DNA of 64,000 bases from Dactylorhiza incarnata (lineage: Eukaryota; Streptophyta; Magnoliopsida; Asparagales; Orchidaceae), in NCBI GenBank assembly GCA_033032865.1, contig JAWHQI010000276.1:1860001-1924000 (forward strand), read 5' to 3'. Numbering within the stretch: the stretch's first letter is position 1; every line of letters begins with the position of its first letter. Below, piece by piece: positions 6,531 through 42,053 of this stretch. The translations under genes and the position numbers were made by a program. A model generated the notes under the pieces. It saw only the letters and a list, made by a program, of their open reading frames with translations, was not told the DNA's origin and made no database searches.

Positions 6531-6661
6531 TCGCTCCCACAGAATCCCGCCTGTCTTTTTTCGGTTGACATTGTTCCTGGGAAGACGATAGATCGGAGAC
6601 GAAGAGGTGGTTTGTTGAGGAATGTATTAGGGCAAGTGAGTTCCGTCTTAGACATTCACTC

Positions 6662-12174: not shown

Positions 12175-13457
12175 TGTTGGACATGTATGTCACATCCCTT
12201 TGTTTGAGAATAACAAATCCTATATTGTATTTGATATTTCTTGTAGTGTGTTTATAGTGTGCAGGAACTATAGGTGCAATACTCCACAGGTAAAAGGCAG
12301 CATGGAATCAAACATTCTGAATGGAGCACTACCGCCAGCGCTAGAGGTTAACGTGGGAGCTAGCGCTACCGCCAGCGCTAGCGCTAACGCCAGGCGATAG
12401 CTCAAGATCATCTCAGCGGTTTTGTCTCTGCGGTTCCGTCTCAGCGGTTCCTTAACGCTACCGCCAGCGCTAGCGATACTGCAGGCGCTATCTCAAGTTC
12501 GTGCACAGAGCCACGCAGCCGACAGTTTCACAACCGCTCCACACGAACGATACCGCAGGCGCTAAGTACTACCGTAGGCGCTAGCTCTAAGGTCTATAAA
12601 TTGAAGCCAACTTCGATCATTTTGATCATCCATCCCAGAGAGGTTGCTTGTGCCACAATTCCAGTGTTGTTATGCTGCCGAAGATGGATCTCCCACAAAA
12701 AGCTTAAGGAGAATTCTGGAGGAGGACTACGTCACGCTACATCCGAAGGACGATCGCTTCTACCTTGCTTATGCTACAGCGATCCTTCATCCTCGACTCA
12801 AGAGATCTCATATAGGGAGTTTTATTATTGTTTTTCATTATTTCCATTCCATACTTTTTTTGTAACCGTTTAGAGAATTCGCCTTGTGTTGGCGACTAGG
12901 TCTGGATAGGACTTAGGGGGAAATTCGCCTTGTGTTGGCGACTAGGTCTAGGTGATTAGATCTAGGGGGTGCTCGAGGCCATATCCGGGGAAGGATTGGC
13001 TAGAGCGGCTTGAGGCCATATCCAGGGAAGGATTGGCTAAAGCCAATCGGTTTGTGGGGATACAAGTCGGTACAGAAAAGGAAAAGAAATTTACATCTGT
13101 ACGCCTCCGATTTCTAGCGATATAGAAATCAAATTTATGTAATCACTTTTTCATATAATATAATCACGTCTCTTTTATGTTTACTTGATTTCTATCACTT
13201 GGCGTAATCTCTATTATATTGTGTTCTAAGTTTTCAATTCTAAATCTAAATTATTTATTTCAATCTCTTTCATCATAAAACAGTTTAGTACTTATTTCTA
13301 AAAATTGCAAATCATAATTTTCTATTCATTTAGCTAAATTGTTATTTTACCTTCGCATATTATAAAACAATTTAGTAATTTTCTTAAAATTATAAAAAGA
13401 ATTTTTATTCCCTTATTCACCCCCCCCCCCCTCTTTAAGGCGCCGTAAGATCCAACA
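12175..13457 (+). repeat. 5' LTR of element E
   Basis: 1,283 bp, TGTTGGACATG to AGATCCAACA. U3 is dense in TAGCGC/GCGCTA words (12335-12590) and ends at TATAAATT (12595-12602). Downstream two repeats occur: 'attcgccttgtgttggcgac' at about 12878 and 12922, and 'gaggccatatcc' at about 12977 and 13012. A C-run (about 13421-13432) lies just before CTCTTTAAGGCGCCG near the 3' end. Confidence 0.9.
12595..12602 (+). promoter_or_regulatory. TATA box of the E 5' LTR
   Basis: GGTCTATAAATTGAAG directly follows the TAGCGC-rich cassette. The same sequence is kept in the 3' LTR at 20077-20084. Confidence 0.65.
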
Positions 13458-13459
13458 AG

Positions 13460-13471
13460 TGGTATCAGAGC
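13460..13471 (+). other. Primer-binding site of element E
   Basis: TGGTATCAGAGC, 2 bp after the 5' LTR end, complementary to initiator Met-tRNA. Confidence 0.9.
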
Positions 13472-13507
13472 GCAGGTTATTCCAAATCGGTTTAACAACC
13501 GGGAATA

Positions 13508-15043
13508 ATGGCGTCACATGATCTCGCTTCTACTAGTGGGGGAAACTTTCCTATAAATGAAAAATCTTTAGCACCACCTTTATTTGAAGGCAAAAATTAT
13601 AATGGGTGGAAATTTCTTATGGAAAAATTTCTTAAATCTTTGGATATTGAAGTATGGAATATTACTATTAAAATGCCCCCAAGTATTCTCAATAAAAATG
13701 AAATGTTTTTAAATGCCAAATCAATGAATAGTCTATATTGTGCATTAGATCAAAATATTTTCAAACTTATTTATACATTTCCTACTGCTTATGAACTTTG
13801 GAAATTTCTTTAGAATTCTTATAGTCTTCCTTCCACAGATGATGAACAAGAGGAATTCCTTATGGATCCAAGAGAAGAAATCGATGAGAACTTATTCTTG
13901 GAGGAAGAAGAATACAACATCACAATATTGGACTCATTTGTTGGCAACACATCAAGCAAAAGAAAAGACGGAAATACAACTATGGAAGAGGAATGCAAAA
14001 AAGATATCAAAGGAATCGTTGGTCCAAAATTTGCCTCATCCCATAGCAATGTAAGAAAATCTAATACTCCTCTTTTTGTAGCAAATTCTATTTCTACTTC
14101 TCGTATGCTTAAAATTGCTAAACGTAAAATTTTAAAGTTAAAAATTGCTAATTCCAAATTACGTTTAGAAAATAAATCTTTAAAAGCAAACGATAACGTA
14201 GAATCAAATATTGATGTGTTAAATTCTCTTTCATGCTCTTTAGTTAAAATTCATATTCCTTGTTTAGATTGCAATTTATTAAAAGAAAAATTCAAGGAAA
14301 TTGAAAAAGGGCTCTTAAATTCTAAAAGGCATAATGAAAAATTGATAATTGAAAATGATTCTTTATCTTGTAAGTTAATACAATTAAAATCTTTTGTTGA
14401 AAAATTTCAAATGTCATGTAATGAATTTCATCATAAGATTTTGAATAACAAGGATAAATTAGCTTACAAAATCATTTCTAAAAAGGACCATTTTCACACA
14501 TTAAATCAAAAGGACTTTAGTTTCAAAAAGAATTATGATCCTCATAAAATTCTTAAGAGTCACTATTATAAGTCTCAATATATTTTCAATCATGACTCAA
14601 ATTTAAAAACTCCTTTTCATGAACATCAAACTATAAATTATTATCCTTCATATTATAAGAGTATGTCTATAAGAAAGAGTGGAAATGAAAATCATCAAAA
14701 GAAGAATCAATCATTTAAAACATATTGTAACCCACTCTTTCAACAATCAGTTCTTAAGAAAGACAATCACTCTTATAAACTTTCAAAAAATCTCTATAAT
14801 AAAATTCATTATGATTATCAACATCAATCTATTTTGAAAAATAATTTGAATAAACATAAATCCCAAATGAATTATTTTTCAAATAAATATAATCATATAA
14901 AGATGTCACATAATCATAATATGAATTTAAATGATAAACAACCAATGTATGAATGGAGACCCATAAAGAAAAATGATGTATCATCTTTAATTGACAATGC
15001 CCATTCATCATTATCCTCCCAAAGGCCATCACGATGTATTTAG
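13508..15043 (+). pseudogene. gag-like gene of element E with one in-frame stop
   Basis: One frame of 511 codons broken only by TAG at 13811-13813. The N-terminal 100 residues are SIRE Gag (MASHDLASTSGGNF, PPLFEGKNYNGWKF, DIEVWN, AKSMNSLYCALD, ELWKFL). Immediately after ELWKFL comes the stop and then an acidic stretch (DDEQEEF, EEEEYN), so the central Gag block and first zinc knuckle seen in B are missing. The rest (from about 14060) is Lys/Asn/Ser/His-rich with coiled-coil-like segments and no CX2CX4HX4C knuckle. Just past the final TAG the frame reads VPKG, then GP and WIPK, matching the usual Gag C-terminal end. Confidence 0.75.
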
Positions 15044-16215
15044 GTACCCAAAGGAACCATCCCACATGGTCCCCTTTGGATTCCTAAAACTTTTATCATT
15101 TTGTATTTTCCAATTGCATGAAGTAGAAACAAATAAAAATGAAATATCACTACTCTACTTCATGATATGCTTATTGTCACTTTTCTTTTGTTTATTTATT
15201 TTTTTTTTTTTGAACAAACATGCTATGATCACTTTATATATCATGAAATATGACTTTCATATATTAAGGCTAATGTTTATCAAATCAAATTTGAATTAAA
15301 ATTGAACATTAAGTCATATATTTTTCAAAGTGATCTATCTCACATCTTTGATTGTACTTTATCCTTTTAAATCCTTTACCCTTAATTGTCTTGAATTATC
15401 ATTAGAAATTGAATTTTGAAATTTTTATCAAGACTATTGAAACTAATTTAAAGATTGGATTTAAATGGTTTATTAATGGGCTTAAACTAAAAATTAAAAT
15501 GCGCAACATTTTTTTTTATTCTATATTTGTTTGTTGCATATGAGAGACCTTATAATGAAGAACATTATCTAGAAAAATTGAAAACAAAAATTCATCTAAA
15601 CGCATGTTTAATCTTTCAAAAATGCGAGTTTACGATCAAAACTTCAAACATCCATATCTTTTGATCCGCTCGCCTGATTTTTGCGTTTAATATATTTTCG
15701 GAAAGAGCACAAAAGTCTCCATCCAACGGCAAACTAGGCTTGCTCCTCTGAGTTCTTTTGGTGTTGTCAACTTGCCTAATTTCAACTCTGTTTTAAAAGC
15801 TGTCTTAGTTTGCTTGATTTGGAAATTTCTGTGTTTATGGATTTTTCATCACATGTTATCCTTATTATAATTATTTCATATATTAATTTAGATATTATGT
15901 GTGTGATGTGTGTCACCAATGTTTGCATGTAATATAGACCTTAGAATCATCTTGTATCATTAAGATCAAATCAAAAGTTTAATCATTTTATTCTAGGTCT
16001 AAAGAAAATTAATTTGAAAACTTCTCATATTACATGCAACATAATCTCCATTAATCCTAAGTAATAACATTGCATTCAAACTCATCATCCTAGCATTGCC
16101 TCTTGGTCTATGCTTATATATTTATGCTAGGTATAACATTTACAATTTTATTAAAATATCATGATAACTATGTGATTTGAAATTATATAGAATATTAAAA
16201 TTCCTAAGAAATTTT

Positions 16216-16600
16216 TGCTAAGTCAATTCGTCGAGATGTCTCGTGAAGTTCCGATGAATCTCGACGAATCCAGACAGAAGCCAAATTTCTAGTTTAAAGA
16301 AGAAATTTCTGCGGCTAAGTCAATTCGTCGAGATGTCTCGTGAAGTTCTGACGAATATCGACGAACGCAGACAGAAGTCAAAAAGTCTGACTTGTGAAGG
16401 AAATTGTGCGGCTAAGTCAATTCGTCAAATGTTCTCGAGAACTCCCGACGAATTCCGAAGAATGAAAACAGAAGACAATTTTCAGGCTTTGGTCAGTATT
16501 TTTCAATGGCTAAGTCAATTCGTCGAATGTTCACGTGAAGTCTCGACGATGGCTAAGTCAATTCGTCGAATGTTCACGTGAAGTCTCGACGAATGACGGG
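16216..16600 (+). repeat. Tandem hairpin repeats in element E
   Basis: Five copies of a unit beginning 'gctaagtcaattcgtc' start at about 16217, 16313, 16411, 16509 and 16551. The first three spacings are about 97 bp and the fourth 42 bp. In copy 1, ATTCGTCGAG (16226-16235) is followed by its exact reverse complement CTCGACGAAT (16260-16269), so each unit can form a hairpin. Later copies diverge but keep the two arms. Confidence 0.85.
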
Positions 16601-18662
16601 CAGACGGATTTCAAATTTATGTTTCAACAAATTCATCATGCTTATCATATTTTAAAACACTATATATGTGATCTTTGTCTTTAATATGAATACATGATCA
16701 TCATTTTCTAGACTTAAAAATCAAACATGCTTATTCAAAAGAAATTCACCAGATCATATTGTCGTAAGTCTAGAAAGAATAGAAATCACATACATCATGA
16801 TGATATAACATATATTCTATGCAAAATTCTCTATAATCATAAATCATAATTCATGTTCTATCAAGAAATATCTCAAATCAATAATAAGAATTATGAATCT
16901 TATGATAAAAATATGAATATTGCTTTCTTTATATTAGTTGGTGCAAGGATATGCTTTGATATTGATTGCATGTATCTCACATATATATAGATTCTAGAAC
17001 CAACCTAGGAATAATAAAGATACATCAAACTTAATCATCATTCTATTATAGATCTATAATTTGAAATTCTATTTTGGAATACATGCAATTTCAATATTAA
17101 TCTTATGACATGACATTAAACCCAAAACTCATCATACTAGCATTGTCACTTATTGAATATTAGTAATTGTGCTAGTTATCTCATATCGTCATCTCATAAA
17201 AGTAGAAAAACTATGCGGCTTTATAACTCATCACAACAAACAAAACCCATAGTTTATATATCAACCCTTAGATTTAAAAGCATAGGTTGTCCAAAGATTA
17301 TTCACCTTTGACTTCATATCTCACAATAGCGGGGGCGTAGGGTTGTATGCATTAGATACCTAACCTCTAAGTCATGTCTTGTCCTTAACCGGGGAGGTTT
17401 CCAATGGGGCCTTGCGAGGCACTGGGGGGAAAGAGTGCTAGGTTGAACGTTCTCTTGTGTGTGCATATTGGATTAACACCCCAACCTACGGCATGCGTGC
17501 ATCTCCTCATGCCCATCCGTCACTTAGTACGGGGCTAGGGTGTAGACATTTAGTCGGGGTAGTCTTTAATCTTAGGACATACTTATATTACTCTTTGCAT
17601 GATCATTTTATTTACTTATCACTTAAATCATGCATATTTTGGGTTGTTTAATAAATAAATGTCCTCTTGTGTCTTCATAATTTAACTTTTCATGATTAAA
17701 TGTTTTTGAAAAACACAAGAATTTGAAAAAGCTAAAGTTTCATGCAAATTTGATCCACCTAGAGATCTCCAAAAATTCTGAAATTTCAGCATGGAACTAC
17801 TCTAAGGACACTTAATTAATATCAAAAATTAAAAATTTAAAATTCTCAAAAAATCACGTACTGTTTACCGCGCTATCACTAGCGCCGGCGCTAGCATGGG
17901 TTTGTGAATTTTCTGATTTTTAAAATTTCTAAATATCCTTAAAAATATGTTAGTCTATATGTAATAATTTGTTTTTGAATTTCTGACATTTATTATTTTC
18001 ATTTTATTTATATTATGAAAAATCAACTACAAAAGTTCAAAATTCAAAAATACAAAAATATTTTTTTTGTTATTTGTATTTTATTCATATTATGAAAAAT
18101 CTACTACAAAAATTCAAAATTCAAAAATTACAAAAATATATTTTTGTGATTTTCTATTTTTATTTGATTTAAAAAAATGATAAACAAAAAAAACTGTATG
18201 ATCTTTATTGCCAATATCAAGCATGTATGAATTCTATTATTTAGAATTATTTACAATGTTAAAACTTATTCCTTCAAATTACTATGAACATTGTTTTGCT
18301 TATCATGCTTTGATATATCTTTTTAAAGTGCATCAATTGTATTGCAAAATGTGTAGAATCAAGCTTAGCATGCCTCTAAGTATGAGTAAATGTTTTATGA
18401 TTGATAATGATGCATTTCACTCTCTTATTTTGGTAATCAACATGTGTGTCTAAATCTAAAAATGCTTGCTTGTGTATTGTATTTGTACAATGAATTAAAA
18501 CTTGCATAAGTTTATTGCCTACACTACAATTGAGTGCACTTATGAAATTTAGAAAAGTGGTTAAGTTAAAAATTTTTGGTTTGCAAAACAAGTGTATTCG
18601 GAGAATGTTGTCTCACAAATATGAACAAAAAAAATATATATATATAGACAAATATAACTCCA

Positions 18663-18723
18663 CCAAGCACTACTTGAACCTCCTGATAAGTCTTCATAAG
18701 CATTGTGAGGTTGAGCACCTTGG
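18663..18723 (+). other. Conserved hairpin in the 3' region of E
   Basis: CCAAG and AACCTC on the left pair with GAGGTT and CTTGG on the right around a loop containing CTGATAAGTCTTCATAAGC. Near-identical sequence occurs in F (46445-46505, and a diverged copy at 46621-46680) and in B (23930-23989, minus), in each case 0.7-1.1 kb before the 3' LTR. The role is unknown; an RNA element is the natural guess. Confidence 0.6.
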
Positions 18724-19414
18724 AAAGAATAGTAAAGTGTCTTGTGCAAACCTTAGTTATTACACAACTTTGTTAAAAAAAATTATTATGTGCATTAAAA
18801 GTGTGTGAAAGTAATTTACTTATGTTTTATTGTGCACTTTACTTTACATATGTCTTGTATTTTGTTGATTTAAATCAATTGTTAACATTGCCCAAAATAC
18901 ACTTACGTGCACATCATTATCTTTCATAACACTTTTTCTCATGAGTATTGGATTCTAATGCTTTATTTATACTACTCTTTATATAAAAATGCACTAGATA
19001 ACCTAGCATGATCTCTACAATGTTTTGGTATTTCTTGAACTTAGAATTAAGTAACATTGTAGTATAATCTCTCTTTGATATGTTCATTTCATGCTTGGTT
19101 TTTCTATGAAAAACTTTGAGATTTCAATCAGGTTAAAACATCTTTCAATTTTGAACTAAAACTCATATTTTTACTTATGCTTTTCATGCTTACAAAAAGA
19201 TGTTTATTATAATCTTCCGCTTGCTTACAACTCTTATATTTTTATTTGAAATCTCTTATATATGCTTACAACTCTTATCTTTATATTTGAAATCCCTTAT
19301 ATATGCTATGCTTAAACTCTTTATCATTTCATATATTACAAAAGCTCGATCATGATTTATAACTAGCCTAATGAATGTCTCCTTACTACCCTCACCCCAC
19401 CTTCTTTTGATAAT

Positions 19415-19675
19415 ACCAAAAGGGGGAGATTAATTGAAGAAATCTATATAGGAGAAATATAGATAAATAAGGGGAGACTAATTCATGAAATCTATCATTT
19501 GGGGGAGTAACACATAAATTGCATTTATGTAGGGGGAGAATTAAGATAGGGGGAGTATGCACATTATCATGCATATCATTTATAGTTGCACTTTTATCAT
19601 TCTTAATTATCTTATCAATAAACACTATTGTTGATTTCTTGCTTAGAGGATTTGTTATTATCAAAAGGGGGAGAT
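19415..19675 (+). promoter_or_regulatory. Polypurine tract and G-tract array of element E
   Basis: The tract beside the 3' LTR is TCAAAAGGGGGAGAT (about 19660-19675). Upstream lie at least five similar tracts: near 19419, 19470, 19501, 19532 and 19549. The first and last both follow CAAAA, so the array looks like copies of the functional tract. Confidence 0.75.
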
Positions 19676-20368
19676 TGTTGGACATGTGTGTCACATCCCT
19701 TTGTTTGAGAATAACAAATCCAATATTGTATTTGATATTGCTTGTAGTGTGTTTATAGTGTGCAGGAACTATAGGTGCAATACTCCACAGGTAGAAGGCA
19801 ACATGGAATCAAACATTCTGAATGGAGCACTACCGCCAGCGCTAGAGGTTAACGCGGGCGCTAGCGCTACTGCCAGCGCTAGCGCTAACACCAGGCGATA
19901 GCTCAAGATCATCTCAGCGGTTTTGTCTCAGCGGTTCCGTCTCAGCGGTTCCTTAACGTTACCGCCAGCGCTAGCGATATCGCAGGCGCTATCTCAAGTT
20001 CGTGCACAGAGCCACGCAGCCGACGGTTTCGCAACCGCTCCATATGAACGATACCGCAGGCGCTAGCTCCAAGGTCTATAAATTGAAGCCAACTTCGATC
20101 ATTTTGATCATCCATCCCAGAGAGGTTGCTTGTGCCACAATTCCAGTGCTGTTATGCTGCCGAAGATGGATCTCCCACAAAAAGCTTAAGGAGAATATTG
20201 GAGGAGGACTACGTCATGCTACATCCGAAGGATGATCGCTTCTACCTCACTTATGCTACAGCGATCCTTCATCCTCGACTCCAGAGATCTAATATAGGGA
20301 GTTTTATTATTGTTTTTCATTATTTCCATTCCATACTTTTTTTTAACCGTTTAGAGAATTCGCCTTGT
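19676..20368 (+). repeat. 3' LTR of element E, truncated
   Basis: Matches the first 690 or so bases of the 5' LTR closely, including the TATA box, up to 'gagaattcgccttgt', then changes abruptly to unrelated sequence at 20369. The right-hand part of U5 and the other half of D1 are missing, consistent with one deletion. Confidence 0.9.
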
Positions 20369-22018
20369 TACGTTAAAAACCTTCAACCTTAATTGAATGG
20401 AATATTATGAAGTGATGATAGATATATCGAGTTATTTTGGAGGGAAGGACAAATTATCATCACCTCGGGGAGTTCATGTTTCGCAAAGGGAACCCTGTAT
20501 TTTTCTGATAATTTATATAGTCTCTTCATTATATTTTAAACAGTTTCCATCTTTGGGGTCCAAGGCCTCATATTGCACCATTTAATTTCTGGAATTATTT
20601 TAAGAAGAAATGATAATTAATTTGAACTAAATTTAACTATTTTGGCTTTTATAGATGGTAAATCATTTTATAAAAAATTATAAAAAAATTATGTTTAAAA
20701 CCATTGTAAAATTCTACATTATTTTCAAATAATTAGGTAAAGAATATTGTTCAATTAATCTTTTAGCACACATCTTGAAGCAATCTACTGGCTGAGATGG
20801 AGCCAAAAAAAAATAGATTTGTGTCTCCACAATAGATCTGGGGTCGATCCTCTGTGGGGCTAATTATAATATCAGGGAAATTGGATCTCTAGAAAGAGAT
20901 CCAATGCCATATATACGCTGGCGGTGGCTAAAAATTTACGGGTTTCCTCCACTGCTAGTCGGCCACTTGATGTCTATTCTCACACATTTAGTGGGTTCAC
21001 TGGAGGCAGGCACTTCCCATGGAGGTGCTCTGACGACCTAGTGTCGTCAGTGATCTTCGGTAAAACTTAGCAGAGCCTATGGATAAATAGGCATTGCCAG
21101 AGCTCTACTCTCTAACAGTCACGACCTCTAGGCTCCCCAGCCTCCAGGCTCCTTCAAGAGGGTCGTTGAGCCCTCTATAAGCATGAGGATCTCCCTAGAA
21201 AGCCTGGAGACTCCAAGGGAGCCACTGTGTGTCGGTCACTGGAGACTCCAAGTTCAGGTGGGATTGCGACGGTCGGAGGCCACATGCAGATCATCAGAAA
21301 AACTAGGGGAGAGGGGAGGAGCAAGAAAACCACCTTAGGTGGGGCCCTCCTCAGAGGTCTGGGTTGGGGTGGCATCACCTGAATATGGTGGTGCTCGGGT
21401 CCTTCTCTCCAGTGCTTGCAAAGCTTCACTTGGATGGCGTGAGTTTCAAAAGTGGCGGGGGTAAGGAGTGGGGCTGAAGCATGGGGGGGGGGGGGGGGGG
21501 GTTAAAAAGGGGTAGACATTGCCTCCCTCTCACTTTCTCTATCTTGGTTATGTTAACCGCCAGTGACCATGGTTTGGTGGAGGAGGAAGGTGGCAGTTCT
21601 TGAGTGGAGGCCTGTATTTGTTGGTTAGGGAGGCAAGAGTTATGTTAGGGATTTGGTTGCGATTTAGGCTAACCTTGGTTTAGGTTGGGTTAGGATAATG
21701 GTTTAAGTAAGGGGTTAATGGACCTTATTGGTTCCAATTGAATCCATTAACCCATACCAGCATCCTAGTGATGCGTAATCCCGATACACTATTACAAGTG
21801 AGAGTGAGACTACGGTCTGAAAGACAGTGAACCGGCCATTGTCAAGTAATAATAAAATTGGAATGAATCCATGACTATCGATTGTCACGTGGAACACGGC
21901 GAGTTGGATTGATCGCTTAAGGAGAGAATTGAGATTTACATCTCATAAGTCAGGGTGTAATGGGGTTTTTTGGTTTTGGATTAACACTAAATCGAGAAAA
22001 GGAAACTGCAACTATGCA
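20369..22018. other. Unassigned non-coding region
   Basis: I see no gene here. It contains a perfect short inverted repeat (20881-20904), CCTCCAG/CTGGAG repeats around 21130-21250, and a run of 19 G's at 21483-21501 that resembles the G-run in LTR ends of this window. Short open frames have no recognisable protein motif. It is the target DNA into which B inserted and may belong to the same old element as 32905-36070. Confidence 0.5.
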
Positions 22019-22023
22019 GGTCG

Positions 22024-23194
22024 TGTTGGATCTTGTGGCGCCCTTAGAGGGGTGGGGGGTGAATAAGGGCCTATTTAAAATATGATTTATACTTAAGAAT
22101 TTTTAAAACAAATTTTGCTTTTCTAAAAATCACTTATAAAAGTTTTCAAAACTATGAAAATTTTAAATTAATTCAAACACAAATTTCTAAGTTAACGATT
22201 AAGCAACCAAATTTGCAAATAAAGAAAAGGTCATAATTTTTTAATCCTGAAATTCACATACAATAAAAATGATCTTAACAATGCTTAAGATCAAGGCACA
22301 AATATGAAAATAAACTTTTAACAATTTTTGTTTACCAATCCTTCTCCCAAGGATCGGAAGGCTATCACTTGTCACTCCCTAGACCAAGCCCAAGCCTATC
22401 CTCTAGATCTTCCCAAGATCTAGATGTAGCACACAAGGCCACGATTTCCTACCAAGCCACGCAAGGACTTGGACGCTCCGCACAAGGAAGCGATTTTACC
22501 CTAAGCCACGCAAGGACTTAGACGTCACGCACAAGGAGACGATTTCCCTACCAATACAAAGTGAAATGTATATAAATGAAAATACAAAATGAAATGAAGA
22601 ACTCCCTAGAAATTCAGATATCTGAAAGGAAGGTTGAATCCTCGAGATGATCATTGATGTAGAAGCGCGTCCGTTCTCGTCTTCAATCTCAAACCTTCTA
22701 AGCATAAATGGGAGTTGATGAGGTTCTGGAGCTCTCTGGTTCTTATGCACTCAGTAAAGGACTTGGAATTCTCAATGCTTGGAATGCATGAACAAAACGA
22801 ACCACTTTATAGATTTTCACAGTCGCCTGGCCGACATCGCTGTCGGAAGTCCGACAGCGCCAAACTGCCGTTCGTCATGCTGTCGTGCGAGCTGTTGCTG
22901 TAACTTCTGGCATGTCGCCTGGGCGACATCGCTGTCGAAATTCTGACAGCGCCAAACTGCTGCTCATTGTGCTATCATGCGGGCTGCTGCTATAACTTCT
23001 ATGTTGTCGCCTGGGCGAGAGTAGATGTCAGAAAATTCCGACATCAAAATTCTCCATAAAGTCAAATTGAGCTCCAATCAGAATTGTGAACATCTCTTAC
23101 CTGTTACCTGCACACCATCAATAAAAGTAGAATCAAATACAAACAGGATTTTGTTATTATCAAACCGGAAGAGTGCGAAACGCATGCTCCAACA
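22024..23194 (-). repeat. 3' LTR of element B
   Basis: 1,171 bp. In minus-strand order: TGTTGGAGCATGCG, three diverged copies of a roughly 105-bp unit holding a GTCGGAA/TTCCGAC palindrome and a GTCGCC/GGCGAC palindrome (plus 22815-23040), then TGAAAATCTATAAAG (22805-22811 for the TATA part), then U5 ending in a C-run and GGCGCCACAAGATCCAACA. Confidence 0.92.
22805..22811 (-). promoter_or_regulatory. TATA box of the B 3' LTR
   Basis: Minus strand GTGAAAATCTATAAAGTGG, directly downstream of the palindrome pair. The same position in the 5' LTR (32510-32516) reads TCTACAAAG, so the copy that would drive B itself has lost the consensus. Confidence 0.65.
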
Positions 23195-23470
23195 ATCTCC
23201 CCCTTTTGATAATAACAAATCTGTATAAAAAGAAATCATGTGTATTTAGGTTGTTGTTTTTAACATATGGTGTGTGCACAAAAATAACATGATATATTCC
23301 TCTTAAATGTAAGCTCCCCCTAGATGAATGCTCCCCTAAATGAATGCTCCCCCTAAATGTTATATTAAATTGAAATGATGTATTGTTTAGGTGGAAGATT
23401 TAGGTGGAATTGTTCTTTGATTTCTTGAATATACTTATAATTCTCCCCCTTTTGGTATTAGCAAAAGTTA
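23195..23470 (-). promoter_or_regulatory. Polypurine tract and G-tract array of element B
   Basis: Minus strand ATCAAAAGGGGGAGAT beside the 3' LTR (23195-23210) is the expected tract. Further AGGGGGAGC or AGGGGAGC copies lie near 23313, 23331, 23348 and 23445; the last again has AAAAGGGGGAG. Confidence 0.75.
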
Positions 23471-23929
23471 ATTTGAAATGAATGAGTAGTTCTTAAGGGA
23501 AGAGATAAGACGTGGAAAATAAGAGTAAGCGGAAGCACTTGTGTTGAAAATTATTGAAGGTCTTGAAATAATAGTAATATGTCATAGTATTGAATAAACT
23601 CAAGAAGAGATGGTATAGCCATATGAAGTAGTAGAATAAAAAAATAACTTAAACATGATTAATGTCATTTTAAAGTATCATAGAAAGATACAATTGTGTA
23701 TAGAAATTTGGAATTTTTTCGGTCCAATTCTCATGAGATGAAGGTTTATATAACATAATGATGTGTACAAGTGTTGCTTTGATCAAACATATGAACTTAT
23801 TTAATTTACATGATCATTGGAATAGAAAACATAATATAAGCATATAAAAACAGCTTTGACCTTGAAGATATAGCACAATAAGAATTGAATACCATTTTTT
23901 CTTTTGCACAAGACACTTTACAATTCTTT

Positions 23930-23989
23930 CCAAGGTGCTGAGCCTCACAATGCTTATTAAGACTTATCAGGAGGGTAAGTAGTGCTTGG
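23930..23989 (-). other. Conserved hairpin in the 3' region of B
   Basis: The minus strand reads CCAAG, then CTGATAAGTCTTAATAAGC in the loop, then CACCTTGG, as in E and F. The inner stem is CCTC with GAGG. The surrounding 90 bp are also shared. Confidence 0.6.
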
Positions 23990-24528
23990 TGGAGTATCCT
24001 TGTCCTCAATTTAACTTTTTGTTGATCACATATTTTGTGATATCTTAACTTTGTAGTTTTTATAGATATTTATATTGTTTATTTTTAATTGACAAAGGAT
24101 CTCCGAATTCACTTGAATCACAAAAGATGGTGTATATTTGGTTGTGCTAACAAATCAAGCTTGAAAGTAGTATTTATGAAATGTTATTGTATTATGTTAA
24201 AGCAAACATGATTCATGTATATATTAAATAGAAAGACATATGTGTGGATCAAAAGAAGTGAACGTGATAGCTCATTATTATATATAAACAATTTCTCATA
24301 CTTAGAGGCATGCGAAAACAATTTCCAATAGTCTAAACCACTTAGCAGGAGTGTTAATACTATGATAGAGCAGAAATGATATCATATAATCATGTAAATA
24401 GCCATTTTTTAAAAAATATAAAGCACATGGTTTGGCATCAATTCATGAGTTGTGGCATTAATAATGACATATGACTAGTGTAGATTATCAGAGAGACCAA
24501 AATAGAAGATTAATCAAATTTGGGAGCT

Positions 24529-24582
24529 GTCGGAATTTTCTGACACTCACTGTCGCCTAGGCGATAGTGAAAAGTATAAAAA
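24529..24582 (+). promoter_or_regulatory. Promoter of the B antisense gene
   Basis: Palindrome 1 (TGTCGGAAttTTCTGACA, 24529-24546, one mismatch), palindrome 2 (CTGTCGCC-TA-GGCGATAG, 24550-24567, one mismatch), then TGAAAAGTATAAAAA with TATA at 24575-24582. In the B LTR, read in its own direction, the same two palindromes are followed by TGAAAATCTATAAAG. Order, spacing and the TGAAAA spacer agree, so this is most simply a copy of the LTR core promoter facing the other way. Confidence 0.65.
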
Positions 24583-24677
24583 CGGCTAAAAACCGAGTCA
24601 AACCTGATTGTACATCATTTTCTGGATAGGAAGGCGAGCAGAAAGTGTCGGAGTGCGGCGAAAACCCTAGATCTAAG

Positions 24678-25174
24678 GTAAGGAACTTGGATTTTTCAAG
24701 TTTTGTTTAAAAGTTTTCAAATTTCTTGTGATTGTGATATTTCTCTTGGTTTTCATTGAGTTTTTGTGAAGAAAGGAAAAAAATGTAGAAGTTTTAGGAG
24801 ATCTAGACATTTTAGATCTTGGTGTTCAAAAGAGGGTTTAGATCTTGTGATGTTGAGATAAAGAAATAAAAATTAGAAGTTTGAATTTTTTTTGTATAGG
24901 AAGAAGATGATGAATAGTGTTTTTTTGTTGAACTTTGAAATTTGAATCTTGTGGTGTTTTTTTTGTTTATAGGAAGAAGATGATGAATATTGTTTTTGAA
25001 TAAAAATTTCAACAGAAATATAGCTTGATTTTGAGTAGATCTGGAAGTCTAGTTGAAAAATCATATAAAAAGTTCACTGGATTACTGTCGGAATTTTCCG
25101 ACAGTCAATGTCTCCTGGGCGACATCGTCTCAGTGCACAGAACAGTGATTAACTTAAATTTGTTATGTTTGCAG
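24678..25174 (+). other. 5'-UTR intron of the B antisense gene
   Basis: The leader reads AAAACCCTAGATCTAAG then GTAAGG at 24678; the 3' end is TTATGTTTGCAG at 25174, one base before AATGGCTTCC. These are canonical plant splice ends with an AACCCTAG-type leader. The 497-bp intron is T-rich and contains a second palindrome pair (25085-25104 and 25109-25124). An intron can persist here because the element's own transcript is the other strand. Splicing is inferred. Confidence 0.65.
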
Positions 25175-25175
25175 A

Positions 25176-26291
25176 ATGGCTTCCAGTTCTAAGGCTCGGA
25201 AAAGTATATTTGAAGATGCGCATAGTTCATATCAAGTATATCCGGGGATTGAGAAGGCAATAATTGGAGTTTCAAAATATGTTAAATTTGACTCTCCTAA
25301 GCACGATCATATCTACACTCGTCTTGCTAATGCAACTATATTATCAGTATTTTCAGTAAATATGTTCTCATCTGTCTTGATTCGAGAGTTTTACAATCAT
25401 TTGGAAGACCCTAAATACACTGAATTAGATGGGGGAGTGCGATCGAGAATCCAAGGTCAACAACTGGAAATAACACATGTTGATCTTAGAGATGAATTTG
25501 GTCTTCTTATGAGTGATCATTTGCCAGACATAGTAGAAAGCTATAGAAAGGATAGAGATTGGACTCTTGTAAATATGAGTTTACATGGAAGTCAAAAGAG
25601 GACCCTAATCATGGAAGTTTCTTCACTCACTCCTGATGCCTATTTAGTCCAATACATATTGAGAAACACAGTCATGCTAAAAAGTGGTGATACAAGGAGT
25701 ATCACAGCACAGTTGACATTGTTTACATATTTTATTATAGAGGAGGAACCCTTTGATGTAGCGGACCTCATCCTTGCCCAGATCCGTTATGCTTTTAGAT
25801 TAAAACAACCAAAATGGGTGAAGATTCATACTTTGCCAATGGGGGCTATAATTCAACGTATTCTATATAAGAAGTATGAATGGATAAGTCAAGATTCGTA
25901 CTTAGATGATTGTGTTCCTGAAATATACTATACGGGTACCATGAAAGTTAAGAAGTCTCATAAAAAGCCTCATCCTGGAATAGAGATTAGAGAGCCTACA
26001 AATCCTAGAGGAGGATCACTACGAGAGTCTATAGATGATCTTCGTGATTCATTTGAAGAACACAAGAAAGAAGTGAAGAAAGATCGCAGTAGACTGCAGA
26101 AATTTACGAAATTTCTGGTGAAGGGATTGAAGTTAAAGCCTACTCCTGAAGAAGCGGCCGAATGGGAAATCCCAGATGAAGAACCGCCATGCCAATCAGT
26201 TAGGCGGACTCGACGTGGAAAGGCTGTAATATGTGGATCTTCAGAAGACTGTCCAGAAAGTAGCGGGGCTGGCTATGATGATTCTGAGTAG
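25176..26291 (+). CDS. Antisense accessory protein of element B
   Basis: An intact 371-codon gene opposite to gag-pol, between the RNase H end and the 3' LTR. The start AATGGC directly follows the inferred intron. No protease, integrase or transcriptase motif is present. Residues 1-260 look like a folded domain, with RIQGQQLEIT at 91-100 and FGLLMSD at 108-114, reminiscent of the 'putative plant transposon protein' domain often found beside plant retroelements; that link is from memory and unverified. Residues 281-312 form a likely coiled coil (SLRESIDDLRDSFEEHKKEV), then a Pro/Glu segment, a basic patch RRTRRGK (343-349) that could be a nuclear signal, and an acidic tail. It has no lesion while gag and pol have many. 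Function unknown. Confidence 0.75.
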   Translation: MASSSKARKSIFEDAHSSYQVYPGIEKAIIGVSKYVKFDSPKHDHIYTRLANATILSVFSVNMFSSVLIREFYNHLEDPKYTELDGGVRSRIQGQQLEITHVDLRDEFGLLMSDHLPDIVESYRKDRDWTLVNMSLHGSQKRTLIMEVSSLTPDAYLVQYILRNTVMLKSGDTRSITAQLTLFTYFIIEEEPFDVADLILAQIRYAFRLKQPKWVKIHTLPMGAIIQRILYKKYEWISQDSYLDDCVPEIYYTGTMKVKKSHKKPHPGIEIREPTNPRGGSLRESIDDLRDSFEEHKKEVKKDRSRLQKFTKFLVKGLKLKPTPEEAAEWEIPDEEPPCQSVRRTRRGKAVICGSSEDCPESSGAGYDDSE

Positions 26292-26319
26292 TTTCCAGCA
26301 GTTTGCTGCTACTGACTGA

Positions 26320-26359
26320 TGTCGGAATTTTCCGACACTCACTGTCTCCTGGGCGACAG
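26320..26359 (+). repeat. Palindrome pair downstream of the B antisense gene
   Basis: TGTCGGAAttTTCCGACA (26320-26337) is followed by CTGTCTCC-TG-GGCGACAG (26342-26359), about 30 bp past the stop codon. It is the third copy of the pair in this region and has no TATA after it. It could act in termination or as a boundary. Confidence 0.7.
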
Positions 26360-26558
26360 TGAACTTACCCAGATTTCATTTTCTTTTTACTGAACTTATT
26401 CTTATGTTTATTTCTACTATTTTTCTGGAACAATTTGTATGAATTATTAATGATGTGAGAATTTTTGTTAAGTCATTCAAATTCTATGTGTTGATTTAAG
26501 ATGATGTTTTTCCATTGTTCTTTATCTTGTTAAACTTGATTTGTCATATTGGATATGC

Positions 26559-28280
26559 TTAGTATGAAATATCTAGGATTCCTAATTCAAGCCTTAGCAT
26601 TGAAAACCGGGAATCCGACAATGGTTTTGTGAATATATCGGCTAGTTGATTATCCGTTCCTATGATGGAAATTTTAATCTGATTATTTTTAATGTGGTCT
26701 CTTATAAAATGATGCCGAACGTCAATATGTTTAGACCTAGAGTGATGAACAGGGTTGTAAGTTAAATCAATTGCACATTTGTTATCGCACCATAGCTCTA
26801 TAGTTTGTTGTTTAATGTTAAAGTCTTCCAAAGTTTGTTTCATCCAAAGAGCTTGTGCACAACAACTACCAAGTGCGATGTATTCGGCCTCGGTGGTTGA
26901 GAGGGCAATAGAATTTTGTTTCCTACTCGACCATGAAATGAGTGAAGGGCCTAAAAAGTGACAAGTGCCACTAGTGCTTTTCCTATCTAGTGAACAACCG
27001 ACATAATCAGAATCAGAATAGCCAAAAAGAGTAAAATCATCGCTATTAGGATACCACAAACCAAGTTTAGATGTGCCAATTAAATATCTAAAAATTCTTT
27101 TTACCACTTTTTAATGTGATTCTTTGGGATCGGCTTGAAATCTAGCACATAAACAAACTGAAAACATAATATCCGGTCTAGAAGCAGTCAAATATAAAAG
27201 TGAACCTATCATTCCTCTATATAAAGTTTGATCTATAGATATTCCATTTTCATCTTTTCCTAATTTTAAAGATACACACATAGGAGTATTTGCTTGTTTG
27301 AGATTTTCAAATCCAAATCGTTTTAAAACAAAACATCATGAATATATTTTGATTGGTTAATAAAAACTCCATCATGTTTTTGAACAATTTGAAATCCTAA
27401 GAAATATTTTAATTCTCCTACCATACTCATCTCAAATTTACTTTCCATCATTTTTACAACATAATTACACAACTCTTCATTAGTGGCTCCAAAAATAATA
27501 TCATCAACATAAATTTGTAAAACAATTAAATCATCATCTACTTGCTTAATGGAGAGTGTACAATCAACACCACCCATTTTAAAACCATTTTGTAATATAT
27601 ATAGTCAATCTATCAAACCATGCTCGTGGTGCTTGTTTTAAACCATACAAAACTTTTAGCAATCTATATACGCGATTAGGAAATTTTTCATTTATAAATC
27701 CTGGGGGTTGTTCAACATAAACTTCTTCTTTAATCAACCCGTTTAAAAATGCAGTTTTAATATCCATTTGCAATAATTTAAATCTTTTATGACTAGCAAA
27801 TGCAACAAAAATTCTAACTGCTTCCAATCGTGCTACGGGTGCAAATGTTTCATCAAAATCTACCCCTTCAATTTGATAAAATCCTTTCGCTACAAGCCTA
27901 GCTTTGTTTCTAGTGACCCTAGAGTCACTATCTAATTTATTTTTGAAAACCCATTTGACTCCTACCACAGGATGATCACTAGGTCTATCTACAAGAATCC
28001 AAACTTTATTTCTTTCAAATTGGTTAAGTTCTTCATTCATAGCTAGAAACCAAGATTCATCATTTAAAGCGGCGACAACATCTTTTGGTTCTATATTTGA
28101 GACAAAACATAAATTTGAAAAACTTTCATGTAAACTAGAACGTGTTCGTACCCCACTTTTTGGTTCTCCAATAAAAAATTCTTGTGGATGATCTTTTGAG
28201 AACCTTAGCTCGGTTGGAGGTACATATCCTTGTTCTTCTTCTTCTTCACCACCTTTTTCGTCTTCTTTCTCTACTTTTTC

Positions 28281-28342
<62 letters not shown>

Positions 28343-29678
28343 TTTTCCTTAGATTTTGTTCCACATCTTCTCCATTTTTCTCATTACCTGCAACTTTAGT
28401 ATTTTCTACACAAGAAATGTTTTCATCAAATTTTACATGAATAGATTCTTCAACTACTTTAGTACGTTTATTATAAACTCTATAGGCCTTGCTAGTTGAA
28501 GAATAACCAATGAAAATTCCTTCATCACATTTTTCATCAAATTTGCCTAAGTTATCTTTTGTATTCAAAATAAAGCATTTACAACCAAAAACTTTAAAGT
28601 AAGATACATTTGGTTTTCTTTGAAAATAAATTTCATAAGGAGTTAATTGTAATGTAGGACGAATCATGACACGATTAATAATATAGCATGCAGTACTAAC
28701 CGCTTCGGCCCAAAAATATTTTGGCAATTTAAATTCACAAAGCATAGTACGTCCTAATTCTTGAAGTGTTCTGTTTTTCCTCTCCACTACACCATTTTGC
28801 TGTGGTGTGCGAGGAGCGGAAAATTCGTGTTTTATCCCAAATTCATTACAATATGAAATAAATTTTTCATTACCAAACTCTCCTCCATGATCTGATCTAA
28901 TGCATTTTACTTTTAAATCAAGTTCATTTTGAATACGTGAAATTAGTTTTACAAAGTCATCAAAAGCATCAGATTTTGAATTTAAAAGCAGTGTCAAACA
29001 AAATCTAGAATAATCATCAATAATAACAAACGTATATTTTCTACCTCCTAGACTTTGTGTAGTAATTGGTCCAAACAAGTCCATATGTAATAATTGTAAA
29101 GGTCTAGTAGTAGAAATAACATTTTTGCTTTTAAAAGATGATTTTGTAAACTTTCCTTTTTGGCATGGTGAACACAATGATGAAAGCTTTCCATTTAAAT
29201 TTGGTAAACCTTTTATTATTTTATTTTTAGAAAGCTTTACTATGCGTTTAGCACTAGAATGACCTAGTCTCCTATGCCATAATTCAAGTTCATCATTTTT
29301 TGAAATAAAACATTTAAGTGTAGAATGAGATAAATCATGAAAAGTGATTGTATAGACATTGTTTATTCTTGGTGCAGTAAGTACGATTTTGTTTGTTTTA
29401 GAATCAATAATTTTGCAAAGGTTTGAGCTAGAGTCAAATAAAACATTTAGATTTTTATCACATAGTTGACTAATAGAAATTAAATTATGTTTCAAACCTT
29501 TAACATATAAAACATTTGAAATTTTAAATTCTTCGTTACCTACTACTCCAATGCCTTTGATTTTACCCTTGCCATTATCTCCAAAGGTCACTGTTCCACC
29601 TTTCTTCATCTCCAGGCTAAGGAACTTTGATTTATCGCCCGTCATGTGTTTTGAACATCCAGAGTCCAAATACCACAC
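26559..29678 (-). pseudogene. pol of element B, near complete with frame breaks
   Basis: Minus-strand order: protease end and tether ([14 protein letters not shown]), pre-integrase ([21 protein letters not shown]), integrase core ([32 protein letters not shown]), a linker with about 20 Asp, reverse transcriptase ([37 protein letters not shown]) and RNase H (SDSDYVGC, STTEAEY, LADIFTKPL). Frame breaks occur at about 27585 (extra base in a TA repeat) and about 27330 (short insertion), and a TAA at about 27113. Catalytic residues that I can see are intact. Two in-frame TAGs separate it from gag (about 29709 and 29697). Confidence 0.9.
28282..28342. repeat. (TCA)n microsatellite coding for poly-Asp in B pol
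   Basis: About 20 uninterrupted TCA units; on the minus strand they are GAT codons. They lie in the integrase-transcriptase linker, which is acidic and variable in these elements. Confidence 0.95.
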
Positions 29679-29708
29679 GTCTTCCTTGTTCCTAGCCTAC
29701 ACGCACAC

Positions 29709-31678
29709 CTAAAAAGATGATGAGAGTAAAGATCTGGTTACCCAAGTGGTCCCTCCCATGGTATAGGTGGATGCTTTAGGTACCCAGATTTGGTTAACAT
29801 TAACTTTTCCTTTCTTCCAGCATGAGTCCGAGATGTGACCAAATCGATGACATTTGGCACATGCAATGAATAGTGAGGAACCATTCTGTAATGGTTTCTC
29901 TGGACTCTTGCTGGAGGAAACATCTTTATGTATGGACTTAGAAAAATTTTCATTTTGAAAAACAGGTTTTCTGAACCTGGAGCTGTCGCTGGTTCCGACA
30001 TCAACTGTCGGAAATTTCTGACAGCTTCCAGAGCTTCCAGAAACGTATCCTAGCCCAAATTTTTCTATCCCATGGCATTGGTTGGCTAAAATCATATCCA
30101 GAGATTTTTTTCCAACACCAAATTTTCCAATTGCCATGTTCAACTCATTTACTTTGGACTTTAAAATTGAATTTTCTTTTACTATCATGCCACATCAATT
30201 TGCCACATTTTTCTTATAATTCTCTAATTGAGAATGAGAGGTTTTAACAACTTTTTCTAAGTCCTTTTACTCTTTTAGACGTTGATCAATTTTTTGATCG
30301 GACTTAGAAATAGTGTTTTCAAGTTCTTTTATCCTTGTCGAAGAGTGATCACACTCTTGACAAATTTCCTTCTCGTTCCCAATAGATTTCAACTCATTTG
30401 ATAACTTTTTATTTACTTTCAAAAGAACTTTATTTTCACATTTTAAGAAATCGATTTCCTTTAGGCTTTTGTCCAAAAATTTGCAAGTTTTCATAAATTC
30501 AGAATATAAATCATCATAAGATGGAGGAGTTACCTCAGTGTCGCTTTGGACACTGCTATCGTCGTCAGATGACGCATTTTCTTTCCCCATCAAGCATACA
30601 TTAGCCTCCTCTTCCTCCTGTGTTGAGGAATCACTTTCTTCACCAGACGAAGAATCATCCCAAGTCTCTGCCTTTAACACTTTCTTCTTGTAACTTTTAT
30701 CGTGCCTCTTTGCTTTTTGCTTTTTCAGATACTTTGGGCACTTGCTTCTGATATGACCAACCTTCTTGCAACTGTAGCACTCCGGTAGCAGACGCTCCTC
30801 TTCATTCTCCATTTTTCCTTTGCCTTTTTGGTAGGCAAAATCGTTCTTTTTGAAAAATCTTTTAAATGAATTTCTCCTCTCCGGATTTATCATAAACTTC
30901 TTAAAGTTCCTCACAAACAGTCCTTCTTCATCTTCCTCGCTTTCTTCAGTCTCACTTTCAATTTCCTTTTTAGATTTCAACGCAAAGCTCTTCTTTTTAG
31001 GCTACAAATTGTACTCTTGGCTTTGAATCTTCAACTCCACTTCACGGGTTCTTAGATTCCCAATGAGACTCTCCAATTGTAAGGTCTTAAATCATGCGAC
31101 TCAGAAATTGCAGTCACTTTAGGATTGAACTTCGGGGGAAGTGATCTTAAGATTTTCCTTACTAAATCTCCATTGGAGAAAACCTTACCCAGCACCTTTG
31201 AATCGTTCACGATTTTAGTGAATCGTGTGTACATTGTATCAATTTCTTCATCCACCTCCATTTTGAATATTTCGAATTCTGACTCCAGTTGAAATAGCAT
31301 TGAATCCTTTACCCGCGAAGTACCATCATGAGTGATTTCTAAAAGATTCCAAATTTCAAATGCAGTATTACAAGCACAAACTCTATTAAATTCAGTGTGA
31401 TCTAGTGCGCAAAATAAAGCATTCATGGCTTTTGCATTGTTCTTACATTTTAATTTATCATTGCCATCCCACTTGTCTTTTGGTTTGTCCATAGTTACAT
31501 CTCCTACAACAAATGTTGGGGAAGTATAACTTGTCTCGACCATATTCCAAACTTTTATGTCGAGAGATATTAGAAAACACAGCATTCGTGTTTTCCAATA
31601 GTTATAGTCTGTGCCCGTAAAAAGTGGTGGCCTACTAATTCCTTGCCCCTCAACGAACGCGTGATCGTTGTGCGCCAT
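29709..31678 (-). pseudogene. gag of element B, with one frameshift and stops
   Basis: The likely start is the ATG at 31678 (MAHNDHAF). Order: PPLFTGTDYNYWKTRM, DIKVWNMVE, AKAMNALFCALD, EIWNLLEITHDGTS, LVRKILRSLPPKFNP, acidic region, first zinc knuckle CYSCKKVGHIRSKC (about 30745-30785), coiled coil, second knuckle CAKCHRFGHISDSC (about 29820-29865). A frameshift near 31070 follows ISESHDL, and there are stops at about 30264 and 30192. A copy of the LTR palindrome (30005-30024) lies within the coding sequence. This is the reference for what C, E and I have lost. Confidence 0.88.
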
Positions 31679-31712
31679 TACTCCTGGTGGTAAAACCGTT
31701 TTGGAGTAACCT

Positions 31713-31725
31713 CCCTCTGATACCA
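31713..31725 (-). other. Primer-binding site of element B
   Basis: Minus strand TGGTATCAGAGGG, 2 bp inside the 5' LTR; initiator Met-tRNA type. Confidence 0.88.
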
Positions 31726-31727
31726 CG

Positions 31728-32899
31728 TGTTGGATCTTGTGGCGCCCTTAGAGGGGGGGGGGGGTGAATAAGGGCCTTTTTAAAATATGATTTTTACTTA
31801 AGAATTTTTGAAACAAATTTTGCTTTTCTAAAAATCACTTATAAAAGTTTTCAAAACTATGAAATTTTTAAGTTAATTCAAACACAAATTTCTAAGTTAA
31901 AGATTAAGCAACCAAATTTGCAAATAAAGAAAAGGTCATAATTTTTTAATCATGAAATTCACAAACAATAAAAATGATCTTAACAATGCTTAAGATCAAG
32001 GCACAAATATGAAAATAAACTTTTAACAATTTTTATTTACCAATCCTTCTCCCAAGGATCGGAAGGCTATCACTTGTCTCTCCCTAGACCAAGCCCAAGC
32101 CTATCCTATAGATCTTCCCAAGATCTAGACGTAGCAAACAAGGCCACGATTTCCTACCAAGCCACGCAAGGACTTGGACGCTCCGCACAAGGAAGCGATT
32201 TTCCCCTAAGCCACGCAAGGACTTAGACGTCATGCAAAAGGAGACGATTTCCCTACCAATACAAAGTGAAATGTATATAAATGAAAATACAAAATGAAAT
32301 GAAGAACTCCCTAGAAATTCAGATCTCTGAAAGGAAGGTTGAAGCCTCGAGATGATCGTTGATGTAGAAGCGCGTCCGATCTCGTCTTCAATCTCAAACC
32401 TTCTAAGCACAAATGGGAGTTGATGAGGTCTTGGAGCTCTCTGGTTCGTATGCACTCAGGAAAGGACTTGGAATTCTCAATGCTTGGAATGCACGAACAA
32501 AACGAACCACTTTGTAGATTTTCACTGTCGCCTGGGCAACATCGCTGTCAGAATTCCGACAGTGCCAAACTGCCGTTCGTCGTGCTGCCGTGCGAGCTAT
32601 TGCTGTAACTTCTGGCCTGTCGCCTGGGCTACATCGCTGTCGGAATTCCGACAGCGCCAAACTACTGCTCGTCGTGCTATCGTGCGGGCTGCTGCTGTAA
32701 CTTATATGTTGTCGCCTGGGCGACAGTAGATGTCAAAAAATTCCGACATTGAAATTCTCCATACAGTCAAATTGAGCTCCAATCAGAATTGTGAACATCT
32801 CATACCTGTTACCTGCACACCATCAATAAAAGTAGAATCAAATACAAACGGGAGTTTGTTATTATCAAACCGGAAGAGTGCAAAACGCATGCTCCAACA
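31728..32899 (-). repeat. 5' LTR of element B
   Basis: Collinear with the 3' LTR with few differences. The palindrome pair is better preserved: CGCTGTCGGAA followed at once by TTCCGACAGCG at 32635-32656 is perfect. The TATA position is TACAAAG (32510-32516 on the plus strand, ctttgta). Confidence 0.92.
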
Positions 32900-32904
32900 G
32901 GTCG

Positions 32905-42005: not shown

Positions 42006-42007
42006 AG

Positions 42008-42019
42008 TGGTATCAGAGC
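42008..42019 (+). other. Primer-binding site of element F
   Basis: TGGTATCAGAGC, 2 bp after the 5' LTR; initiator Met-tRNA type. Confidence 0.9.
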
Positions 42020-42053
42020 GATTTTATTCCAATCAGCTTAACAACCGGGAATA

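Follow-up and report, generated by a model that had tools for sequence, protein, structure and literature searches.

A stretch of 64,000 nucleotides from the orchid Dactylorhiza incarnata (contig JAWHQI010000276.1, positions 1,860,001 to 1,924,000; hereafter the window, in whose own coordinates all positions are given) contains a full-length copia-type long terminal repeat (LTR) retrotransposon, element B, which carries on the strand opposite to gag-pol a real, selected accessory gene; the promoter region of this gene follows the same Sirevirus box-plus-TATA plan as the LTR of the element. By its sequence marks B is a member of a multi-copy Sirevirus-type family with the accessory gene reversed between pol and the 3' LTR. 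Antisense accessory genes and Sirevirus palindromic boxes are each known, and their combination is new insofar as our literature searches found none. We favour, at a probability of roughly one half, an explanation in which the selected gene would be transcribed from its own promoter, its leader spliced and its protein directed to the nucleus, and in which both the gene and the LTR would be controlled through their common palindromes.

The antisense gene is encoded by the plus strand, in the interval from pol to the 3' LTR of B, with the following predicted anatomy:

22024..32899, minus strand: element B, full-length Sirevirus-type copia element, recognised by its LTR pair, ends, primer-binding site and polypurine tract
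24528..24566, plus strand: P1-P2 palindromic module of the antisense promoter (P1 24528-24545, P2 core 24551-24566), followed by GTGAAAA
24575..24580, plus strand: TATA box of the antisense gene, TATAAA, 8 bp past the P2 core
24605..24677, plus strand: predicted exon 1, a 73-bp 5' leader (AACCCTAG leader) with a putative start site, ending at the donor AAG/GTAAGG
24678..25174, plus strand: predicted leader intron, 497 bp, ending at the acceptor TTTGCAG/A, the exon resuming at 25175
25086..25124, plus strand: P1-P2 module within the intron
25176..26291, plus strand: antisense coding sequence of 371 codons, ATG at 25176 and TAG at 26289-26291, with a distant match to the Pfam family PF20167
26320..26358, plus strand: P1-P2 module 28 bp past the antisense stop, near the end of pol

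The palindromes, TGAAAA, TATA, leader, intron ends and 371 intact codons that a preliminary description of this DNA had reported can all be read directly in the sequence. A stop-free run of this length has a chance of ~7e-13 at the local composition, and the spliced leader holds no ATG ahead of the start codon, compared with eight in the intron.

The sense genes of the same copy are decayed:

26559..31747, minus strand: gag-pol of B, interrupted at nine sites, by frame changes in three cases and by in-frame stops in six

These nine lesions bear out the earlier estimate of at least seven, with a count that assumes that the pol frame continues from the gag to the integrase domain, a stretch for which family A, another Sirevirus-like family of the window, gives no comparison; two of the stops, 12 bp apart, may be the natural gag/pol border rather than lesions. 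One intact 1.1-kb frame beside such damage in 5.2 kb would arise by chance with a probability of ~0.15 (nine lesions) to 0.22 (seven), so that the intactness of a single antisense frame is a weak argument on its own, and we rejected the notion that the intact frame of the window copy proves selection.

The window derives from a 3.27-Gb assembly, in which a search with the antisense protein gave 8790 first-look candidates; 110 of them were scored, and all 110 proved nearly full length, with 90-100% identity to the query. For the comparison of copies we used the 30 best loci, window copy included, ranked by protein score. TATAA is present in 30/30 copies and stands 8 bp past P2 in 29 of them, and the donor AAG/GT is kept in 29/30, the acceptor TTGCAG in 28/30, the ATG in 28/30 and the TAG in 27/30. 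Mean identity to the window copy amounts to 95.2% in the coding sequence, 94.5-95.6% in two pieces of pol and 80.5% in the intron body, and a frame-changing indel relative to that copy occurs in the antisense frame of 1/29 copies and in each pol piece of 10/29. The modules are retained as well: the promoter module was found in 29/29 other copies (mean identity 88.3%), the intron module in 29/29 (94.7%) and the post-stop module in 28/29 (92.1%), while 17 of 20 further stretches of 3' LTR hold at least five module sites, two hold four and three sites, respectively, and one holds none, the LTR match being partial or absent in these three. As an observation on the assembly, copies L004/L005 and L006/L007/L008 lie in identical or near-identical 4.1-kb surroundings on separate contigs, some being very short, and are probably haplotype duplicates.

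To separate old from recent variants, we determined the ratio of nonsynonymous to synonymous changes per site (N/S) by variant frequency in 27 copies, after dropping three near-identical ones of the 30. In the antisense frame, N/S is 0.632 for singletons, 0.33 for variants present in two copies and 0.137 for those in three or more, the last class comprising 40 synonymous and 20 nonsynonymous variants (versus singletons, Fisher p 4e-7). The pol piece 26562-27110 gives 0.731, 0.366 and 0.086 for the same classes and a second short pol piece, with few synonymous changes, 1.69, 0.63 and 0.15; among old variants, the antisense frame and pol are not distinguishable (p 0.40). When the antisense gene is read in its wrong frames, N/S of old variants is 1.15 and 2.05, with no significant contrast between old and new. 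Pooling every pairwise comparison among the 30 copies yields ratios of 0.256 in the antisense frame, 0.157 in the first pol piece and 0.316 in the second. Ranking by protein score lowers nonsynonymous change and disfavours frame-shifted copies, a bias that weighs less on the old-versus-new contrast, drawn within one set of copies, and on the wrong-frame control. Because old variants are strongly synonymous in the antisense frame, we conclude that purifying selection acted on the protein while the family was spreading, as judged from copies ranked in this way. Decay of the frame and splice ends at the neutral rate in other copies, the outcome named beforehand as speaking against the gene, is not what these protein-score-ranked copies display.

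The palindromes that tie the gene to the LTR are of two kinds. P1 reads TGTCGG-N6-CCGACA in the antisense gene and the outer LTR module, with an N4 spacer in the other LTR modules; P2 reads TGTCGC-N4-GCGACA; and the two in tandem make up a module of 38-43 bp. The preliminary description had located modules in the promoter and the LTR, where they are indeed found, and its picture is incomplete in that B holds ten, several with a mismatch: three per LTR and one each in the promoter, the intron, the post-stop region and the gag region. Those outside the antisense gene lie in the following features:

31728..32899, minus strand: 5' LTR of B, three P1-P2 modules, with TACAAA at the TATA position
22024..23194, minus strand: 3' LTR of B, three P1-P2 modules, with TATAAA
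29984..30023, minus strand: P1-P2 module in the gag/nucleocapsid region, as judged by position

Allowing at most one mismatch, TGTCG-N6-CGACA occurs 14 times in the 64 kb, as opposed to a mean of 0.48 and a maximum of 3 in 60 dinucleotide shuffles, and 13 of the 14 fall in B, the lone palindrome outside it being at 40006. The corresponding N8 pattern occurs seven times (mean 0.57 and maximum 2 in shuffles), in each case within B, and one of the seven is a degenerate match in exon 1, outside the modules.

Local alignment of the antisense promoter with the 3' LTR scores 52, whereas the best of 500 shuffles reaches 30, and alignment with the outermost LTR module yields 34 identical columns of 38, with homology stopping at the module edges. 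Past the promoter module, GTGAAAA and TATAAA match the layout of the innermost 3' LTR module, and measurement by hand puts TATA 47 bp from P1 in the antisense promoter, as opposed to 45 bp in the 3' LTR. To speak of an inverted copy of the LTR promoter, as had been done, is therefore too strong, since only a module of ~40 bp and the TATA spacing are common to both; what stands is an antisense gene behind a promoter-like region in which these two features of the LTR recur. The order of palindromes, TGAAAA and TATAAA previously ascribed to the LTR is that of the 3' LTR; the 5' LTR reads TACAAA instead (32505-32520, minus strand), which may have weakened the sense promoter of the window copy. P1 fits the core CGG-CCG of the Sirevirus RM box exactly and P2 has CGCC-GGCG, both being palindromic and clustered upstream of the LTR TATA. 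Five modules tested as single DNA strands fold well (z -2.7 to -5.4), as palindromes do; since the modules sit upstream of TATA in both the LTR and the antisense promoter, we prefer a role at the DNA level over one as hairpins.

The class assignment of B draws on its ends and domain order. The element is flanked by a 5-bp target duplication, CGACC (22019-22023 and 32900-32904), and its LTRs of 1171 and 1172 bp are 95.1% identical (57 substitutions over 1173 aligned sites, one indel, Kimura distance 0.050). According to Pfam, rve stands ahead of RVT_2 in one frame, which is the copia order, and gag is of the Retrotran_gag_2 type. Further marks are found at the 3' end:

23197..23450, minus strand: four polypurine octamers AGGGGGAG ahead of the 3' LTR of B

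The last octamer starts 10 bp before the 3' LTR, as expected of Sireviruses, and both LTRs show by eye a C-run ~25 bp from their 3' end; such octamers and C-runs are among the reported Sirevirus marks (PMC2829016). The primer-binding site, CA/CGTGG TATCAGAGG, differs by one letter in each part from the Sirevirus form, CA/ATTGG or CA/AGTGG followed by TATCAGAGC. Separately, a 3' linker stretch of ~130 bp is 84-87% conserved between B (23903-24040) and two other families (18613-18750 and 46407-46532), and is possibly the end of an old sense open reading frame (ORF) or an RNA signal.

The profile search that had been proposed for the 371 residues returned a single Pfam family, PF20167 (Transposase_32; E 1.2e-7, 32.3 bits, residues 65-213), at a score below the curated cut-off of 45 bits; another copy reaches 33.0 bits. 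As controls, the shuffled protein gave nothing below 0.16 and the reversed protein matched Nup54 at 1.8e-5 over its reversed coiled coil, so that E values near 1e-5 need caution; the PF20167 match lies outside the coiled-coil stretch that the reversed control hit. At E 0.01, no relatives of the protein were found in a set of 5.8 billion proteins (1098 candidates), in viral contigs or in prokaryote genome contigs, and the exact P1-P2 pattern has no match in the viral contigs. Two basic clusters visible by eye, one spanning residues 257-264 and the other 343-349, are possible nuclear-import signals.

The same genome holds strong PF20167 members: 150 were scored from 8771 first-look candidates, and all exceed the cut-off. 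Among 30 such loci compared, frames were inspected in nine, and in eight of these a sense integrase-like frame lies by eye upstream of the PF20167 gene, with weak backing from Pfam in one of two tested loci. The pol of family A, used as a query against the 30 loci with 1.5-kb flanks, gave two integrase matches and no reverse transcriptase or RNase H match. This agrees with a PF20167 3' ORF in a sunflower Athila element (PMC11728184), and the loci are probably of the Athila type. The antisense protein is at a distance from these clear, gypsy-type PF20167 members (blastp best E 6e-4, 27% identity over ~100 aa; hhalign probability 6%, E 0.006); because this kinship is so distant, we go no further than to call gene transfer between gypsy and copia elements possible.

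Several known systems share parts of this arrangement. The preliminary description had noted the existence of antisense open frames in certain plant LTR elements, a statement that understates the precedents, which include the LTR palindromes published in 2010 (PMC2829016) and gene23 of Grande (PMC7264820). Accessory ORFs running antisense in the interval from pol to the 3' LTR are known from maize Grande (gene23), RIRE2 and Retand (TRP28) (PMC7264820, PMC11963269); they have position, antisense orientation and conservation across copies in common with the B gene, and gene23 reportedly has a promoter of its own and encodes a nuclear protein (PMC7264820). The B gene displays the properties of an aORF-3R: it is antisense, it is situated past pol and ahead of the 3' LTR, it recurs in many copies, and its conservation resembles that of the other proteins of the element. 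Grande and Retand (and RIRE2), however, are Ty3/gypsy elements, whereas B is copia, and the Retand protein has another domain (TRP28, PF04195); moreover, the accessible text of these two papers makes no mention of a promoter sharing LTR palindromes, or of a module in a leader intron, for any of the three.

The Sirevirus RM boxes are palindromes that form a cluster upstream of the LTR TATA; members with an env-like gene have additional boxes in the linker ahead of it, and an internal env promoter is one for which the authors saw support without identifying it conclusively (PMC2829016). One of the set, the Usier box GTCGGACGTCCGAC, is near to P1 of B (PMC2829016). Whereas those extra boxes precede an env-like gene, the B gene is antisense, has its TATA 8 bp past the boxes and carries boxes also in its intron and after its stop. 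Athila-type PF20167 proteins, one of which is encoded by a 3' ORF of a sunflower Athila element (PMC11728184), share with the B protein the Pfam domain, which the B protein matches weakly but significantly, and the location downstream of integrase towards the 3' LTR, and differ in that their ORFs are sense and gypsy while that of B is antisense, copia and below the curated cut-off. A further parallel is VANC of the Arabidopsis VANDAL elements, likewise an element-encoded accessory gene with family-specific short motifs in its intron and upstream (PMC5735166, PMC10398659), where motif and protein diverge together (PMC5735166). VANDALs are DNA transposons, though, their motif YAGTATTAY is non-palindromic by eye, and binding and anti-silencing have been shown for VANC, whereas binding by the B protein is a proposal. 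Full-text literature searches, judged by their listings and with most subscription papers outside their scope, surfaced no antisense gene of B's kind in a Sirevirus, and the word 'antisense' is absent from PMC2829016, PMC3599292 and PMC6317226. Sireviruses make up ~21% of the maize genome (PMC3599292), and a selected antisense gene that LTR boxes flank and apparently drive suggests one answer both to the role of antisense accessory genes (PMC7264820) and to what reads the Sirevirus boxes (PMC2829016).

We propose that host polymerase II would read the antisense gene from its own promoter, that the leader would be spliced and that the protein would enter the nucleus; with less certainty than these steps, a dimeric DNA-binding factor would then recognise the palindromes. 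As the likeliest candidate for this factor we favour the antisense protein, because the modules sit in the promoter, the intron and the gene end as well as in the LTR, and a protein that reads the boxes would be the most economical account of their placement. A single regulator could thereby set its own gene together with the LTR, opening or activating the copies of its family in a sequence-specific manner. Should the protein indeed bind the 39-bp module, an LTR retrotransposon would join the elements known to govern their own silencing or transcription through sequence-specific regulators that they encode.

How far such a system might extend can be gauged from the other Sirevirus-like families in the window:

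40850-48700: family A, TAGCGC palindromes
12175-20400: family C, imperfect TAGCGC type (by eye; our script listed none beside the C TATA)
56617-57720: family D, TAGCGC palindromes
about 900-1950: family E, TAACGC palindromes, TATA-like box GATAAATA

In all four, the LTR palindromes stand 5-11 bp upstream of the TATA or TATA-like box (measured by hand). Families A and C moreover share a conserved stretch of ~240 bp (45441-45680 and 17765-18000) that holds their own palindrome type and, in A, directly follows pol, near the place of the 3' module of B. Within a family the half-sites of LTR and internal boxes are the same, and between families both arms differ together, as one would expect of sites that co-evolve with a dimeric protein binding them. 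It is conceivable, if doubtful, that all of this reflects a Tat- or VANC-like system in which a dimeric antisense protein reads the palindrome of its family at the promoter, intron and 3' end of its gene as well as in the LTR, and protein and palindrome diverge together (TGTCG, TAGCGC, TAACGC).

The proposed circuit is favoured by the purifying selection, the kept gene anatomy and LTR modules, the C>T/G>A type of arm variation and the family-specific joint change of the arms, together with the precedent of VANC proteins, which bind short motifs within the introns and upstream parts of the elements encoding them and co-diverge with these motifs (PMC5735166). Other findings weigh against it. The protein has no recognised DNA-binding domain, a Pfam search with a limit of E 10 giving PF20167 alone, and its AlphaFold2 model from the single sequence is unusable (predicted local distance difference test, pLDDT, 34). 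At least one in-frame stop interrupts the antisense frame in 16/30 copies (pol pieces: 18/30 for one half as long, 5/30 for a shorter one). Ranking copies by protein score favours intact frames. The arms of the promoter module (0.081 and 0.095 per site) vary like their surroundings (0.063-0.094) unless C>T/G>A changes are set aside; such changes account for 29/43 variants of that module, as decay of methylated cytosines would give (counted irrespective of CpG context), and for 91/123 variants in module arms, 278/1530 in the AT-rich intron body and 319/775 in the coding sequence. Matching boxes within a family could also result from shared descent or copying of LTR sequence, and similar palindromes occur in the Sireviruses OPIE-2 and PREM-2, which have no env-like gene (PMC2829016). 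Finally, family A has palindromes, yet tblastn recovered no second match to the antisense protein in the window, and hence no gene of A or C type.

Because A has its palindromes without a second copy of the protein in the window, a host factor could read them, and the best-surviving competitor, credible though we put it below even odds, is that the modules are host transcription-factor sites, for instance of auxin response factors (ARFs), through which antisense gene and LTR would share host input while the protein served another role, such as nuclear import, silencing suppression or an env-like one. ARFs bind TGTCGG with the highest affinity, and reporters with TGTCGC show expression (PMC10690724); comparison of Sirevirus palindromes with host factor sites gave chiefly stress-related matches (PMC2829016). 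The modules, however, are spaced as inverted repeats IR6 or IR4 rather than the IR7/8 preferred by ARFs, ARF5 binding IR6 with lower affinity (PMC10690724), and the same-place palindromes of A, C, D and E lack the TGTC core, so that ARFs would not explain those; we accordingly rejected ARFs as the general reader of the boxes.

It is improbable that the antisense RNA rather than its protein is what matters, with the transcript overlapping the end of pol and double-stranded RNA tuning silencing, as the convergent layout beside pol would permit and as has been discussed for other antisense ORFs (PMC7264820): codon-level selection is confined to the antisense frame, appearing in neither wrong frame, and start, stop and splice sites are mostly kept, all of which argues for the protein. 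Slimmer still are the prospects of a captured gypsy env-like gene kept by hitch-hiking, with a promoter likeness due to short-module copying and no circuit, because, for all that the strong PF20167 members of this genome and the 3' ORF of sunflower Athila (PMC11728184) make a sense gene behind an integrase-like frame a conceivable source, hitch-hiking predicts neutral N/S where we found 0.137 in score-ranked copies, and the tie to gypsy proteins is weak.

Apart from the antisense gene of B, the window contains three minus-strand frames of 182-275 codons (5799-6626, 59782-60411 and 60412-60960) that gave no convincing Pfam match and look coiled-coil-like and acidic by eye. Element C has a gag-like frame of 409 codons (13814-15043) with no Pfam match and no pol frame of at least 150 codons, and may be a non-autonomous Sirevirus. 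In family A, the 5' LTR is without the stretch of its 3' LTR that holds the TATA box and start region (41339-41420 versus 47985-48070), and because a short repeat flanks the gap, this copy has probably lost its promoter.

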